Assembly: GCA_900177435.1 (NCBI GenBank)
Contig: FXAI01000007.1
Coordinates: 126,501-190,500, forward strand
Direction of reading: 5' to 3'
Source of the DNA: Alteromonadaceae bacterium Bs31
GTDB lineage: Bacteria > Pseudomonadota > Gammaproteobacteria > Pseudomonadales > Cellvibrionaceae
Length of the DNA stretch: 64,000 nucleotides
Positions 4,005-9,784 of this stretch are shown piece after piece. The number at the start of each line of letters is the position of its first letter. Within the stretch, counting starts at the first letter, position 1. The notes beneath the pieces are model-generated. The model searched no databases, was not told where the DNA came from, and was given only the letters and a program-made list of their open reading frames with translations. The translations under genes were made by a program, and so were the position numbers.

Positions 4005-5648
4005 ATGCAGAAAAGACAACTTTCCGATCTTTACAACAACTGGGACCAACTCACCACCTCCGCCGCCAGCTGGAAAGAGAAAAAACTTAAAGATCTGTTC
4101 AGTGAAGACCGTAATCGTGCAGCACGGTATTCAGTCTCTGCCGCCGGGCTTTGCCTGGATTTTTCGAAAAACCATATCGATGAAAGCACCCTGTCTCTGT
4201 TGGTCAACAGCGCTCAGCAGGCGGATCTACAAGGTGCTATAAAACGCCTAATGCGTGGCGATCACGTGAACAACACCGAAAATCGCCCAGCTCTTCATTC
4301 CGCGCTGCGTTACAGCGGCAAAGCAAAAACAGACGAAGAAAAAAGCGTTGAAGCGACCCTGGAAAAAATGTCAGCGCTTATTGATACTGTCCACAGCGGT
4401 GACTGGAAAGGCTTCAAAGGGGACAAAATTACTGATGTGGTAAACATCGGCATCGGCGGATCAGACCTTGGTCCACGTATGGTGACCAAAGCCCTAACAC
4501 CCTTTCACACCGGTCACGTGAATGTGCACTTTATTGCCAATATCGATGGTGCAGAAATTTACGATCTAAGCCAGCAACTTAACCCGGCCAGCACCCTCTT
4601 CCTGGTGGCATCAAAATCTTTTTCCACCCTGGAAACACTGGAGAACTCGCTCACGGCTCGTGACTGGATGCTGAAAAATGGCTGCCCCGAAAACGAGCTC
4701 AAAAAGCATTTTATCGCCATCTCCTCTAAGGTCGATAAAGCCGTGGAGTTTGGTATCGCGGAAGAAAATGTTTACCCCTTGTGGGACTGGGTGGGCGGCC
4801 GCTACTCTCTGTGGTCCGCCATTGGTATGCCCATCGCCTTCGCCGTGGGTATGGACAATTTCAACAAACTGCGTGCTGGTGCTGGTGCTATGGACGAGCA
4901 CTTTGCTACAGCCCCTCTGGAAAAAAATATTCCTGTATTGATGGGCTTATTGATGTTCTGGTACAGCAACTTCATGGGCACAGACACTCAGGCCATCCTG
5001 CCTTACGCCTACCATCTACAACTCCTCCCTGCCTACTTACAGCAATTGGAAATGGAAAGTAACGGTAAGAGTGTTTGCAAAGATGGAGTCCGTGTGGACT
5101 ACCAGACCGGGTCCATCGTCTGGGGAACAGAGGGAACCAACGGCCAACACTCCTTCCACCAGTTACTGCATCAGGGCACCACTATGGTACCCATTGATTT
5201 TATCGCCACCCTGAAAGCACACCATCCCTACGACCATCAGCACAAATACCTATTTGCCAACTGTGTTGCACAGAGTCAGGCCTTAATGGCAGGTCGAGAC
5301 CTGGAAACCACAGTAGCCGAACTGCGAGCATCCGGGGCGAACGAAGAAGACATACAAACACTGGCGGAACATAAAGTTCACCCAGGTAATCGCCCCAGCA
5401 ACACAATCCTGATGGATCAGCTAACGCCAGAAACCTTAGGTGCGCTGATCGCCGCTTACGAGCAAAAGGTCTACACTCTGGGCGTGCTATGGAACATCAA
5501 CTCTTACGATCAGTGGGGCGTAGAGTTAGGTAAACTGCTAGGCACACACATTGCAACTTCAATATCGACTACTGACATCCCCGGCGACTGGGATTCTTCC
5601 ACCCAGACACTGGTCCGTAAATTTAATTCCGCCAACCAGAGCATTTAA
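4005..5648 (+). CDS. pgi: Glucose-6-phosphate isomerase
   Basis: Cytosolic isomerase interconverting glucose 6-phosphate and fructose 6-phosphate; it connects glycolysis with the glycogen genes elsewhere in the window. The 547-residue protein has the large-form bacterial layout, with VNIGIGGSDLGPRM, the PGI signature around WDWVGGRYSLWSAIG, and GTEGTNGQHSFHQLLHQGT. The start is chosen at MQKRQLSDLYNNW because GAGGGAGTATCAA precedes it at good spacing. It begins 36 bases after ispB on the same strand, so an ispB-pgi transcript is plausible. Confidence 0.98.
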   Translation: MQKRQLSDLYNNWDQLTTSAASWKEKKLKDLFSEDRNRAARYSVSAAGLCLDFSKNHIDESTLSLLVNSAQQADLQGAIKRLMRGDHVNNTENRPALHSALRYSGKAKTDEEKSVEATLEKMSALIDTVHSGDWKGFKGDKITDVVNIGIGGSDLGPRMVTKALTPFHTGHVNVHFIANIDGAEIYDLSQQLNPASTLFLVASKSFSTLETLENSLTARDWMLKNGCPENELKKHFIAISSKVDKAVEFGIAEENVYPLWDWVGGRYSLWSAIGMPIAFAVGMDNFNKLRAGAGAMDEHFATAPLEKNIPVLMGLLMFWYSNFMGTDTQAILPYAYHLQLLPAYLQQLEMESNGKSVCKDGVRVDYQTGSIVWGTEGTNGQHSFHQLLHQGTTMVPIDFIATLKAHHPYDHQHKYLFANCVAQSQALMAGRDLETTVAELRASGANEEDIQTLAEHKVHPGNRPSNTILMDQLTPETLGALIAAYEQKVYTLGVLWNINSYDQWGVELGKLLGTHIATSISTTDIPGDWDSSTQTLVRKFNSANQSI

Positions 5649-5666
5649 GAACTCGCAGTTAAAAAA

Positions 5667-5690
5667 AACGCGGTGGACGCCGCGTTTTTT
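5667..5690 (+). terminator. Intrinsic terminator of pgi
   Basis: AACGCGG (5667-5673) pairs with CCGCGTT (5680-5686) across a 6-base loop, and the stem runs into six T. An A tract precedes the stem, so it could also work from the other side. Confidence 0.85.
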
Positions 5691-5922
5691 CCTTCTACTT
5701 CACGCTATATTTAAGCTCTGTTAGCACAAAATGAACTTTCTGTTTTGACCTCGGTCAGATCGCTTACCATTATCTTACTGTAGAACAGCTCAAAATAGTG
5801 GCAACAAAGCTCTTACCGTCAAAGCCTGTTTGTTCTCTACAGACTTGCGACACACTCCCCAGCTTAGGGGTAACCTATATTAATAACTCCAATGATGGAG
5901 TTCCTATTTTCAGGAGTCATTC
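5691..5922 (+). promoter_or_regulatory. Promoter/leader region of the bufferin-type operon
   Basis: No gene is visible. There are three short inverted repeats: TGACC-TC-GGTCA at 5746-5757, CCCC-AGCTTA-GGGG at 5857-5870, and CTCC-AATGAT-GGAG just before the start. GTAACC at 5870-5875 resembles the -35 box of ECF sigma factors known to drive some DUF2282 operons, but no matching -10 is obvious. The bufA start has a clear Shine-Dalgarno (CAGGAG). Any regulatory role of the repeats is inference. Confidence 0.35.
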
Positions 5923-6201
5923 ATGAAAAACATGTCAAAAACACTCGCACTTTCCAGCGCAATCGCAGCAGGCGTTATGATGGCTGGCGCCAGCGACGTT
6001 TACGCGGGCAAACCTACCATGGAAAAATGCTACGGCGTTGCTAAAGCTGGCAAAAACGATTGCGCCATTAAAAGCCAGGGCACCAGCTGCGCAGGCCAGG
6101 CCAAAAAAGACGGAATTGCAGATGCCTGGGTTTACGTGCCTAAAGGTACTTGCGATAAAATCGTTGGAGGCAGCACTAAGCCAAAAGCTGCAGCCAAGTA
6201 A
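5923..6201 (+). CDS. bufA: Bufferin-type RiPP precursor (DUF2282), secreted Cys-rich peptide
   Basis: Small 92-residue protein with a Sec signal peptide (about 1-28, cleavage after DVYA). The mature part has four cysteines at 36, 47, 56 and 77 in the DUF2282 pattern [14 protein letters not shown] ... [10 protein letters not shown] ... [11 protein letters not shown]. Bufferins are a recently described group of peptides whose cysteines are modified by a DUF692/MNIO enzyme to bind copper in the periplasm. The signal peptide takes the place of a classic leader. The downstream genes supply exactly the expected enzyme, partner and membrane protein. Lys and Ala dominate the tail (KPKAAAK). That this member handles copper is inference from the family. 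Confidence 0.9.
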
Positions 6202-6214
6202 GCTGTTAATGTAT

Positions 6215-6235
6215 GGAGCCCACACACTGGGCTCC
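6215..6235 (+). other. Stable hairpin between bufA and bufB
   Basis: GGAGCCCA (6215-6222) and TGGGCTCC (6228-6235) form a perfect 8-bp stem with a 5-base loop CACAC. It sits 14 bases after the bufA stop and is followed by TCATTT rather than a long T tract. It may be a partial terminator or a 3' stabiliser that keeps the precursor mRNA more abundant than the enzyme mRNA. Confidence 0.6.
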
Positions 6236-6245
6236 TCATTTAGTT

Positions 6246-7106
6246 ATGCAAGCAAAGCACCCCGCACTGCCAAGCACTTCCGGAATTAGCCTAAAAGCGC
6301 AGCACTACCAGCAGATAATAGAAACTCTGCCAGACATTGGCTGGTTTGAAGTCCACCCGGAAAACTACATGTGCGAAGGTGGCCCACCCCACCGCTACCT
6401 CACCAAAATTCGTGAAAACTATCCTTTATCACTTCACGGCGTTGGCATGTCTCTGGGAAGTGATATTTCCGAGCAACATCTAAAGGCACTAAGCGTATTA
6501 ATAGAACGCTATCAACCCCAGCAGGTTTCAGAACATATTGCCTGGAGCCAGCACGGAGGCGCATTCTTCAACGACCTGCTCCCCTTACCTTACAGCAAAG
6601 AAAGCTTTTCTTGTGTGAGCGACAATATCGACAAAGCACAAAATTACTTAAAGCGCAGCATACTCGTTGAAAACCCATCAAGTTATGTGGGGTTTTCTGA
6701 GAACGATTTTTCCGAACCAGACTTTCTAAACACACTGTGTAAAAAAACGAGCTGTGGTTTACTACTGGATATCAACAATGTTTTTGTATCGGGCAGTAAT
6801 AATGGCATCGACCCCTATCGCTACCTGGATGAAATAAATCCTGACTATGTTGGCGAGATCCATTTGGCCGGACATTCCATAGTGACCTTAGCCAATGGTA
6901 CCCCTATGCGAATAGACGACCACGGCTCGGCTGTAAAAAAAGAAGTTTGGCAACTACTTAGCTATTTTATTGAAAAACATCAACAGCGCTTTCCCTGCTT
7001 AATTGAATGGGACAGCGATATTCCCGAACTGCAGACCCTGCTTGGCGAGGCACATAAGGCAAGCAAGCGAATCAAGCTGGCCCTGGAAAAAAATGCGCCT
7101 AGATAA
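6246..7106 (+). CDS. bufB: DUF692 multinuclear iron oxidase (MNIO), bufferin-modifying enzyme
   Basis: TIM-barrel enzyme of the MNIO (DUF692) family. These enzymes bind two or three iron ions and oxidise cysteines of a cognate precursor peptide in the cytosol. Expected motifs are present in order: GWFEVHPENYM, LSLHGVGMSLG, QVSEHIAWS, LVENPSSYVGF, GLLLDINNVFVS, EIHLAGHS, DDHGSAV and CLIEWDSD. These carry the His, Asp, Glu and Asn metal ligands. I start at 6246 (MQAKHPALPSTSGISLK, 286 residues), which fits the usual N-terminus; the in-frame ATG at 6213 would put the intergenic hairpin inside the gene. No strong ribosome binding site precedes either. The 3' end overlaps the next gene by 14 bases. 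Confidence 0.9.
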   Translation: MQAKHPALPSTSGISLKAQHYQQIIETLPDIGWFEVHPENYMCEGGPPHRYLTKIRENYPLSLHGVGMSLGSDISEQHLKALSVLIERYQPQQVSEHIAWSQHGGAFFNDLLPLPYSKESFSCVSDNIDKAQNYLKRSILVENPSSYVGFSENDFSEPDFLNTLCKKTSCGLLLDINNVFVSGSNNGIDPYRYLDEINPDYVGEIHLAGHSIVTLANGTPMRIDDHGSAVKKEVWQLLSYFIEKHQQRFPCLIEWDSDIPELQTLLGEAHKASKRIKLALEKNAPR

Positions 7107-7872
7107 AACTCAATCAAGCTTTGCTCGCTTTCTCAAAAATGGGAGTTGTTCCTTCGAGCTGGAAAAAGCCCTGAAGGATTACCCGCGGGAAGAGCTGGAT
7201 GACCGCCTTAACATTTATAGAAACAACGTTTTTCATTCAATGACGGAGGTACTGCAAGACACTTTCAGCTCTGTGGCTTCGGTTGTTGGCGATGATTTTT
7301 TTGAAGCACTGGCCACGGCTTTCATTAAGTCCTCCCCACCTTCACAGCCAGCCATGATACATTTTGGAGAAAACTTTCCAAATTTTATCGAAAATTTTGA
7401 GCACTCACGGCAATTACCCTACCTGGCAGATTTAGCCCGCCTGGAATGGGCTGAGCACAGCGCCTACTACAAGGCGGAAGCTCAAGCCTTGCCATTGGAG
7501 AGCTTTACATCCCTGAGCAATACTGAGCTGGCCAACGCAATATTTACCTTCCACCCCAGCTTTCATTTACTCCGTTCCAGCTATGCCATTTTTTCCATTA
7601 CAGAAATGTTGCGCAGCGAGGAGATCGCCGAGACCACAAATTACCAACACTCGGAAAACGTACTCATCATTCGCCCCGAATCGGTCGTTAAACGCTACAA
7701 GCTATCAAATGCCCTTTCACATTTTTTTGAACTTTTGGTGAGCAGAGTAGACTTAGAAACAGCCTTAGACGAAGCGCAACTTGTTGCCAACACACTGAAG
7801 GATGAATCATTTAACCCCAGTGAAGCTGTTGCCTTCCTCATAAATTCTCAATCTGTTATTGCTGTAGCCTAA
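7093..7872 (+). CDS. bufC: DUF2063 partner protein of the MNIO enzyme
   Basis: Predicted 259-residue cytosolic protein with an N-terminal DUF2063 domain (LDDRLNIYRNNVFHSMTEVLQDTFSSV, GDDFFEALATAFI, HFGENFPNFIENF, LPYLADLARLEWA). It also has a C-terminal domain with EMLRSEEIAE and VIRPESVVKRYKLSNALSHFFELLV. DUF2063 proteins accompany DUF692 enzymes and are thought to present the precursor peptide to them. Its ATG at 7093 lies inside the last codons of bufB, so translation is coupled and a complex is likely. It has no signal peptide or membrane segment. Confidence 0.88.
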   Translation: MRLDKTQSSFARFLKNGSCSFELEKALKDYPREELDDRLNIYRNNVFHSMTEVLQDTFSSVASVVGDDFFEALATAFIKSSPPSQPAMIHFGENFPNFIENFEHSRQLPYLADLARLEWAEHSAYYKAEAQALPLESFTSLSNTELANAIFTFHPSFHLLRSSYAIFSITEMLRSEEIAETTNYQHSENVLIIRPESVVKRYKLSNALSHFFELLVSRVDLETALDEAQLVANTLKDESFNPSEAVAFLINSQSVIAVA

Positions 7873-7912
7873 AGGCAAACAAGCAAAGCGCCGATTGCCA
7901 AGGAGATAATCT

Positions 7913-8371
7913 GTGAAAATATTTAGAACAGTCGAAAACCTTTCTAAATCCATTGGCGATTTTATTCCTGAGTTCGCACTTAATTTAGCTGCGCGCCTAT
8001 CCGTCTTTATGATTTTTTGGCTTTCCGCTCAAACCAAGCTGGGGGGCGAAAGCCTGTGGGGGCAGAAATGGATGTTTTGGAATGTAGCAGAAAATACTTT
8101 TATGCTATTTGAATATGAATACGCGCTGCCATTGATCCCTGCCAACATAGCCGCCTACATGGCCACCTTAGCCGAGTTTTGGCTGGCCATCTTTGTTTTA
8201 CTGGGTTTGTTTACCCGAACCAGCGCTTTAATGTTAATTATCATAACCTTGGTTATTCAGATTTTTGTTTATCCAGGATCGTGGGCTCAACATCTTCTGT
8301 GGCTTGTACCGCTTGTCTATTTATTAAAAGAAGGTGGCGGCCAACTCTCATTAGACAGAAAAATTACTTAA
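7913..8371 (+). CDS. bufD: DoxX-family membrane protein of the bufferin operon
   Basis: Integral membrane protein of 152 residues with four hydrophobic segments, at roughly residues 22-40, 70-90, 95-118 and 122-140. It has DoxX features such as LSVFMIFWLSAQTKLGG and AEFWLAIFVLLGLFTRTSALML. It starts with GTG at 7913 behind an excellent AAGGAGAT site, 40 bases after bufC. DoxX proteins are frequent last members of DUF2282/DUF692/DUF2063 operons; a redox or quinone role is proposed for the family but not proven here. An intrinsic terminator follows immediately. Confidence 0.85.
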   Translation: MKIFRTVENLSKSIGDFIPEFALNLAARLSVFMIFWLSAQTKLGGESLWGQKWMFWNVAENTFMLFEYEYALPLIPANIAAYMATLAEFWLAIFVLLGLFTRTSALMLIIITLVIQIFVYPGSWAQHLLWLVPLVYLLKEGGGQLSLDRKIT

Positions 8372-8375
8372 AAAA

Positions 8376-8402
8376 AAGGGGGCTGAAATTCAGCCCCTTT
8401 TT
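8376..8402. terminator. Bidirectional terminator between bufD and manB
   Basis: GGGGCTG and CAGCCCC pair around the loop AAATT, flanked by an A tract on the left and a T tract on the right. It can stop transcription from both convergent genes. Confidence 0.85.
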
Positions 8403-8422
8403 AATCACACAAACATTAAACA

Positions 8423-9784
8423 CTAAGCATCAAAGCGCTTAACCATACCGAGCAACTCCTCGGTTTTGGCCTCCATTAACGCTTGGTCTCCTGCACTCTC
8501 AATATTCAAACGCAGTACCGGCTCGGTACTGGACATGCGAATATTAAAACGCCAGTCATCAAACTCCATAGTAAGCCCATCGACCTTAGCTACTACCTTC
8601 GCAGAAAGCGTATAGTGCGCCTCGATCTCTGAAATAATTTTTTTCGGATCATTTACCGTGTTGTTAAGCTCACCACTGCAGGGGAACTTGGCCACACGAT
8701 CTTTAACCAGCTCAGAAAGTTTTTTACCTGTGCGGGACAACAACTCAGCCACCAGCAACCATGGGATGTTGCCGTTATCACAATAAGCGAAATCACGGAA
8801 GTAATGGTGCGCACTCATTTCACCACCATACACCGCATCTACAGCTCGCATTTTTTCCTTGATAAAGGCATGGCCGGTTTTACTGAGTACTGCCTCACCA
8901 CCACCTTGCTCTGTGATATCGATGGTATTCCAGGTTAAGCGTGGGTCGTGAACGATGTTCGCCCCGGGGTTTTTCTTCAGAAAAGCCTCGGCAAGCAGCC
9001 CCACCACGTAATAACCTTCAATGAAGCTACCAGTCTCATCAAAAAAGAAACAGCGGTCGAAGTCGCCATCCCATGCGAACCCCAAATCAGCGCCGGATTT
9101 TTTTACAGCCTCGATAGTTGCACTGCGTCTTTCCGGCAGAAGCGGGTTAGGGATTCCATTGGGAAACGAGCCATCAGGCTGATGGTGAACTTTTATAAAC
9201 TCGAAAGGCAAATGGGACTCGATACCGTCGATAACCGCACCAGCACCACCATTGCCCGCGTTACAAACCATCTTCAGTGGTTTGAGTACGGAGGGATCAA
9301 CATAAGTTAACAGGTGATCTATATATTCTGGTCGAATATTTCGCTTTTCAACGACACCCACTTTTTCGGGTGTATTAAACTCGCCTTTTTCTGCCATTGC
9401 ACGAATATCGACGAGACCAGTATCACCGGAAATGGGGCGCGAACCTTCGCGTACCAGCTTCATGCCGTTGTAATCCATCGGGTTATGACTGGCGGTAACA
9501 CAGATACCGCCGTCCACGCCCAAATGGAAAGTGCCAAAATAGACTTCTTCTGTACCCACCTGGCCGATATGAATAACGTCGGCGCCAGCTTCAGTAATAC
9601 CTTTTACCAGAGCGTCAGTTAATTGCTCACTGGTCAAGCGAATATCATGACCAACAACAACCGTTTTAGCGCCCAGAAAATCAACGAAAGCACGACCTAC
9701 GCGGTAAGCAACGTCTTCATTGAGTTGTTCCGGAACACGACCACGGATGTCGTATGCTTTAAAACAGCTAATATCAATTTCCAT
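8423..9784 (-). CDS. manB: Phosphomannomutase (possibly also phosphoglucomutase)
   Basis: Alpha-D-phosphohexomutase of 453 residues, interconverting mannose 6-phosphate and mannose 1-phosphate for GDP-mannose. It is closest in pattern to E. coli CpsG/ManB ([26 protein letters not shown]). Catalytic phosphoserine loop [13 protein letters not shown], metal-binding loop DGDFDRC, sugar-binding loop [10 protein letters not shown] and phosphate-binding [10 protein letters not shown] are all present. It lies 13 bases downstream of galU, so the two probably form an operon supplying nucleotide sugars for surface polysaccharides. A dual phosphoglucomutase activity, as in AlgC, is possible. Confidence 0.92.

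Follow-up and report, generated by a model that had tools for sequence, protein, structure and literature searches.

The 64,000-nucleotide stretch of DNA analysed here (the window) is from Alteromonadaceae bacterium Bs31 (GenBank assembly GCA_900177435.1, contig FXAI01000007.1, positions 126,501 to 190,500 of the forward strand). At 5923-8371 its plus strand carries four genes, bufA (DUF2282), bufB (MNIO), bufC (DUF2063) and doxX. It is apparent that these represent a bufferin-1 (Buf1) operon, bufABC-doxX, which was confirmed as an observation and is ordinary in kind. The results described below suggest, in addition, that this operon probably belongs to the RpoE (sigma-E/AlgU) envelope-stress regulon.

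The order of the genes is that of the published core of bufferin clusters, which consists of precursor, MNIO, DUF2063 and DoxX genes (Antoine et al. 2025, PMC12452194; this and the other published systems are cited here from the available portions of the papers). A sequence-only reading of the stretch had proposed this architecture and the four family assignments. Both were borne out by the hidden Markov model searches that it suggested, in which all four products exceeded the curated Pfam cut-offs: bufA was placed in DUF2282 (PF10048, 88.6 bits versus a cut-off of 22.4) and bufB in DUF692/MNIO (PF05114, MbnB_TglH_ChrH, 321.2 bits), while BufC and DoxX matched PF09836 (DUF2063, 76.5 bits) and PF07681 (48.5 bits), respectively. 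BufB also scored 349.7 bits against NCBIfam model NF050167 (MNIO_BufB, 'MNIO family bufferin maturase'; cut-off 310). For both BufB searches the protein was scanned from an upstream start at 6213, the one given in the mechanical list of open reading frames (ORFs); the ATG at 6246 chosen in the sequence-only reading agrees with the relatives and is situated beyond the hairpin between bufA and bufB. The overlap described for the DUF2063 gene is likewise present, the bufC ATG at 7093 leaving 14 nt shared with bufB. The unit had also been called minimal. It does comprise four genes only, but it is not unusual in this respect, because the published bufferin core is exactly these four genes.

BufA is a protein of 92 residues with a signal peptide whose cleavage site, judged by eye and with no predictor, follows V-Y-A28. 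Its four cysteines are residues 36, 47, 56 and 77, exactly as had been read. Four cysteines with spacings of 11/7-9/21 were observed in 23 of the 23 bufA loci parsed, that of the window included; only the spacings of 7-9 and 21 are free observations, because the pattern used to choose the loci sets the first spacing at 11. Of 25 BLAST-level bufA matches, two were not counted, namely L076, which runs off the end of its contig, and L082, in which the search motif was unmatched; the 23 loci include second copies in four genomes. Buf1 precursors are reported to have four conserved cysteines, the central ones being modified and the outer pair forming a disulphide, and Caulobacter Buf1 is reported to chelate copper via thiooxazoles and to aid growth under copper (PMC12452194). 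The window agrees with each point of that description that a sequence can test. A search of the PDB sequences with BufA gave nothing up to an E value of 1, and a predicted structure was discarded as too poor (predicted local distance difference test score, pLDDT, 49).

Nine positions of BufB (His64, His97, Glu142, Asp175, His206, His210, Asp224, His226 and Glu254) are invariant in an alignment of six BufB homologues, and the same nine are present in 3bww when it is aligned with them; we take these to be the metal ligands. The model of BufC (259 residues, pLDDT 84) matches 8hi7_A and 3dee across most of its length, the Foldseek E values being 4.9e–06 for the former (TglI) and 2.8e–03 for the latter (NGO1945), with a probability of 1.00 for both. 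NGO1945 is itself a partner protein (PMC13097082). BufC thus has the features of a PME-type 1 partner, a class of about 250-260 residues in which a DUF2063 domain is combined with an RRE-like domain, the latter predicted here from the structure match.

The case for RpoE derives from a motif, GAACTT...GTC, that was first spotted by eye in side-by-side upstream sequences. In a first count, which covered 300 nt and spacers of 10-21, it was found at a spacer of 15 in 7 of 22 bufA loci, at no other spacer and never on the reverse strand. A second count, in which a locus was added, the –10 element was relaxed slightly and 320 nt upstream were covered, gave the spacer-15 motif in 8/23 bufA, 16/23 rpoE and 0/52 control upstream regions, the last being those of six housekeeping genes in the same stretches. 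The bufA regions had no match at spacers of 11-14 or 16-19, nor on the reverse strand; the rpoE regions had two further matches at a spacer of 16, the remaining rpoE loci having neither of these two spacers, and one at 19, and the controls a single reverse-strand match, at a spacer of 12. Across seven loci GAACTT lay between 95 and 190 nt from the start of bufA, and this variability argues that the match is not merely conserved flanking sequence. The rpoE gene of the organism itself (TIGR02939, 326.6 bits versus 236.15) is followed by RseA_N and MucB_RseB genes and preceded by GGAACTT-N15-GTCTCT. Read as GAACTT-N16-TCAGA (5733-5759), the predicted promoter of the window meets the AlgU consensus GAACTT-N16/17-TCtgA (PMC10651043), one base being off at the lower-case –10 position. 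A sigma-E promoter is therefore plausible on the grounds of position, spacing and likeness to the rpoE promoters. The sequence-only reading, in which neither this promoter nor the stem-loop between bufA and bufB was recorded, had left the inducer open. It was correct that no dedicated sigma factor is adjacent, and the candidates are now narrowed to a likely one, RpoE, acting at the predicted promoter. A scan for sigma-70 promoters yielded four sites versus 4.0 expected, i.e. no signal. No report of RpoE-RseA-RseB-type control of bufferins was found in a search of the literature restricted to open-licence papers. Elsewhere, at L083 (G000:C21:42387), an exact TGAACTTT-N14-GTC match is located 51 nt ahead of the start of a small ORF, lipoprotein-like when judged by eye, which is another candidate sigma-E target.

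The stem-loop between bufA and bufB, at 6215-6235, has 8 pairs, 6 of them G-C, and its tail, TCATTTAGTT, is without a T-run. A hairpin could be drawn in this gap in 10 of 10 loci linked to pgi or pgm, with sequences that differ from locus to locus. Fold z-scores below –2 were obtained in none of nine ispB-pgi gaps and in all five fba-ispB gaps of the same loci; because of the latter, strong hairpins are not peculiar to the bufA-bufB gap. No hairpin was found in the DUF2282 clusters for which a script measured gaps of 0-38 nt (L004, L022, L024, L041, L044, L048, L054 and L057). Intercistronic stems that raise the upstream over the downstream message are known in other operons. It is a reasonable reading, from the sequences compared, that the stem-loop may raise the bufA message over that of bufB in the same way. 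Hairpins followed by T-runs were noticed by eye between the precursor and MNIO genes at L018, L014, L030 and L049, non-DUF2282 clusters included, and suggest partial termination there. For the 5′-leader hairpin at 5885-5902 no claim is made, since z-scores below –2 were found in only one of nine pgi-bufA gaps (last 70 nt).

It was of interest to compare the operon with known systems. The Buf1 cluster of Caulobacter vibrioides, CCNA_03363-03366 (CC3254-CC3257), consists of these four genes too, arranged identically (PMC12452194, PMC8224329, PMC3511200). It is under neighbouring SigF-NrsF control at GTAACC-N16-CGAA (PMC3511200, PMC8224329), whereas the window has a sigma-E-like promoter and NrsF was not found in the genome. 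Nor was there an ECF (extracytoplasmic function) sigma or NrsF gene among the scanned neighbours, so the arrangement is not of the SigF-NrsF type and the earlier statement that no ECF sigma/anti-sigma pair is adjacent stands. A SigF-type GTAACC element, considered by eye for GGGGTAACC near 5876, was rejected, as the CGAA half is absent at the right spacing. The gigPABT genes of Cupriavidus metallidurans, termed a bufferin cluster in PMC12452194, are copper-induced and resemble the window in their four-cysteine precursor, DUF2063 and DoxX-like genes, but the metal-binding GigA occupies the place of the MNIO protein and the cluster is divergent from the ECF gene rpoQ (PMC10304878), a kind of neighbour that the window operon does not have. 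The DoxX cluster of Haemophilus influenzae and NMB2140-2145 of Neisseria combine MNIO, DUF2063 and DoxX genes under an ECF sigma (PMC7907618, PMC2893595), the gene for Haemophilus RpoE2 being located elsewhere in its genome (PMC7907618). Those two sigmas are paired with small anti-sigmas of the ZAS kind (PMC7907618, PMC2893595), in contrast to the RpoE-RseA-RseB type of the present genome, and the Neisseria promoter, GTMAGBWTT/CGTCTAAH with a spacer of 12-13, differs from that of the window (PMC2893595). From the portions of these papers available, none of the Caulobacter, Neisseria and Haemophilus cluster sigmas appears to be of the RpoE-RseA-RseB type. The captophorins/oxazolins (fontiphorin, oxazolin and the Microbulbifer Mmr) also employ an MNIO enzyme and a DUF2063 partner, which form thiooxazole (or isomeric) copper ligands from cysteines, but their precursors have EGKCG-type repeats (PMC13097082, PMC12538549); BufA consists of one DUF2282 domain that carries four cysteines, and no EGKCG repeat was found in it. 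The operon is not of the oxazolin (HvfABCX) type, since BufB (198.4 versus 360 bits), BufC and DoxX also score below the HvfB, HvfC and HvfX equivalog cut-offs.

Several results weigh against the interpretation given above and are collected here. The motif is missing from 15 of the 23 bufA upstream regions, including three of the eight same-genus main loci (G003, G005 and G006). In the wider class, it is absent from 25 of 26 parsed bufA loci examined with the same pattern and length, these deriving from the best-scoring 29 of all matches, of which three were unparsed. Only 4 of 30 MNIO loci contain it within 1300 nt upstream, all four with a DUF2282 precursor (the DUF2282-type loci include L029, whose precursor is a 76% identical BufA relative). 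GAACTT-N15-GTC occurs at eight sites in 21 stretches versus 2.4 expected, five of them before bufA and three at one other homologous place. A genome-wide scan allowing one mismatch gave 64 sites, fewer than the 86 of the reversed control, so that the motif alone predicts little. The Fisher p value of 2.9e–05 for bufA versus control is optimistic, because the motif was first seen by eye in the very sequences tested and these come from related loci. Many of the control regions (those of pgi and ispB, for instance) are coding sequence of the preceding gene, a poor match for promoter regions. In Caulobacter, sigma-E has been excluded as the driver of sigF, the expression of which was unchanged in an rpoE mutant (PMC3511200). 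As regards the hairpin, fold z-scores below –2 were obtained in only 6 of the 10 bufA-bufB gaps. As regards the proteins, a search of PDB sequences with BufC found no match up to an E value of 1, and the scores of BufC against HvfC (56.7 versus 142) and of DoxX against HvfX (37.8 versus 80) were below the equivalog cut-offs.

In view of the loci lacking the motif, the operon might instead answer to a different regulator, one that responds to copper or redox state and is of the CueR or CopR type or a trans-acting ECF sigma, GAACTT being coincidental or minor. The genome has six more TIGR02939 matches below the cut-off, which are candidate ECF sigma genes; the C. metallidurans gig cluster is induced by copper and gold and is thought to respond to periplasmic signals (PMC10304878), and the Caulobacter operon is SigF-dependent (PMC3511200). 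Against these points stand the absence of NrsF from the genome and the occurrence of the motif at exactly one spacing, together with its presence in the rpoE promoters of these genomes. No further fixed-spacing element was seen by eye (no systematic motif discovery was run), and this alternative appears somewhat improbable. The main role of the operon might also be protection from oxidative damage to the envelope (of the hypochlorite type) or from other metals, the binding of copper being secondary. A predicted sigma-E promoter suits general envelope stress, the homologous DoxX/DUF2063 cluster of H. influenzae shows an induction by hypochlorite that is not significant when RpoE2 is missing (PMC7907618), and Neisseria sigma-E controls its cluster along with MsrA/MsrB (PMC2893595). 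Such a role is nevertheless unlikely given that Buf1 of Caulobacter is reported to chelate copper and to help growth under copper (PMC12452194) and that the cysteine pattern of the window is the Buf1 pattern. Finally, the hairpin at 6215-6235, with its G-C-rich stem and its place on the list of terminator-like sites, and with T-runs in some relatives (e.g. L018), could be a true terminator, bufBC-doxX having its own promoter. This is very doubtful, as the tail in the window has no T-run and no sigma-70-like plus-strand promoter was listed between bufA and bufB.

What was observed is the set of genes with their family assignments, the arrangement of the cysteines, the conservation of the locus and the sharing of a promoter motif; for the remainder, a course of events consistent with RpoE control can be proposed from what is known of the family. 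Envelope stress, of which too much copper in the periplasm is one possible cause, would release RpoE from RseA, and RpoE would initiate transcription at the predicted GAACTT-N15-GTCAGA promoter. The stem-loop after bufA may allow precursor message to accumulate above that of the enzyme. BufC would present the precursor to BufB, and Cys47 and Cys56 would be oxidised to 5-thiooxazoles, as suggested by the work on Caulobacter Buf1 and the captophorins. The peptide would be exported by Sec and its signal peptide cut off, a disulphide would presumably link Cys36 and Cys77, and the mature peptide could bind Cu(I)/Cu(II) in the periplasm.

With the organism's own genome included in each case, MNIO genes were found in 48 of 58 related genomes, BLAST-level BufA relatives in 20 of 38 related genomes and DUF2282 in 77 of 274 genomes of the class. 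The genome itself has a single MNIO gene and a single DUF2282 gene (the search covered those precursor types that have a Pfam model). The stretch fetched around a bufA-bufB-doxX locus includes pgm in all seven other genomes of the genus, and bufC is present in all seven; pgi is there too in six, the seventh being G001 (L038), where pgi was not found in a stretch that extends 5.6 kb beyond bufA. Conservation of the locus across the genus argues that it is old and has been inherited vertically in this group, rather than being a recent arrival. The stretch fetched for G034 is identical to a Marinagarivorans metagenome-assembled genome. At a pgi-linked locus in G033 (L055, about 5190-6820, minus strand), an MNIO gene and a DUF2063-like gene were seen after pgi by eye (no HMM search), and neither bufA nor doxX was found; in this MNIO protein Asn replaces His64 and Gln replaces His226, so that it looks like a decaying or re-purposed orphan. 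In G057 (C141:9153-10476) the MNIO match is in three pieces, and either the gene is broken or the assembly is at fault there.

The features of the region are listed in the table below. The terminators that the sequence-only reading had placed at both borders have counterparts in terminator-like stems at 5663-5690 and 8379-8397. The latter is on the minus strand in the terminator list, and TTTTT follows the same stem on the plus strand. Eight terminator-like sites were counted in 5500-8600, compared with a mean of 3.9 (sd 2.0) in shuffled sequence. A family scan identified the neighbours as fba, ispB and pgi upstream and pgm (convergent), galU and fabA downstream. An Rfam scan of 5600-8500 gave nothing above the gathering scores.

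Features of the bufABC-doxX region (window coordinates)
Feature	Position	Strand	Basis
Terminator-like stem-loop after pgi, upstream border	5663..5690	+	12 pairs, then T-rich sequence
Predicted sigma-E/AlgU-type promoter, GAACTT-N15-GTCAGA	5733..5759	+	Motif counts; AlgU consensus; same element at own rpoE
Small 5′-leader hairpin, 7 pairs	5885..5902	+	Weak statistical support
bufA, DUF2282 bufferin-1 precursor	5923..6201	+	PF10048; Cys36/47/56/77
bufA-bufB intercistronic stem-loop, 8 pairs, without T-run	6215..6235	+	Terminator-like list, folding
bufB, MNIO bufferin maturase	6246..7106	+	PF05114, NF050167, conserved His/Asp/Glu
bufC, DUF2063 partner protein (PME type 1)	7093..7872	+	PF09836, structure model
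doxX, DoxX-family membrane protein, GTG start	7913..8371	+	PF07681
Terminator-like stem-loop between doxX and convergent pgm	8379..8397	.	T-runs on both sides

The operon adds one more bufferin cluster to a widespread, recently described class. For the family at large, there is about an even chance that the main bufferin-1 operon of many genomes lacks a dedicated ECF sigma (SigF-NrsF, RpoQ, RpoE2) and is wired into the general RpoE-RseA-RseB envelope-stress regulon, with a hairpin, conserved in place and variable in sequence, that sets the outputs of precursor and enzyme apart. If the promoter reading holds, it provides a testable answer to the question of what activates stand-alone bufferin clusters, and copper-binding ribosomally synthesised and post-translationally modified peptides (RiPPs) would be tied to the core envelope-stress response and not to a dedicated sensor. 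The sigma-E response would, in that case, routinely include a RiPP that buffers copper.

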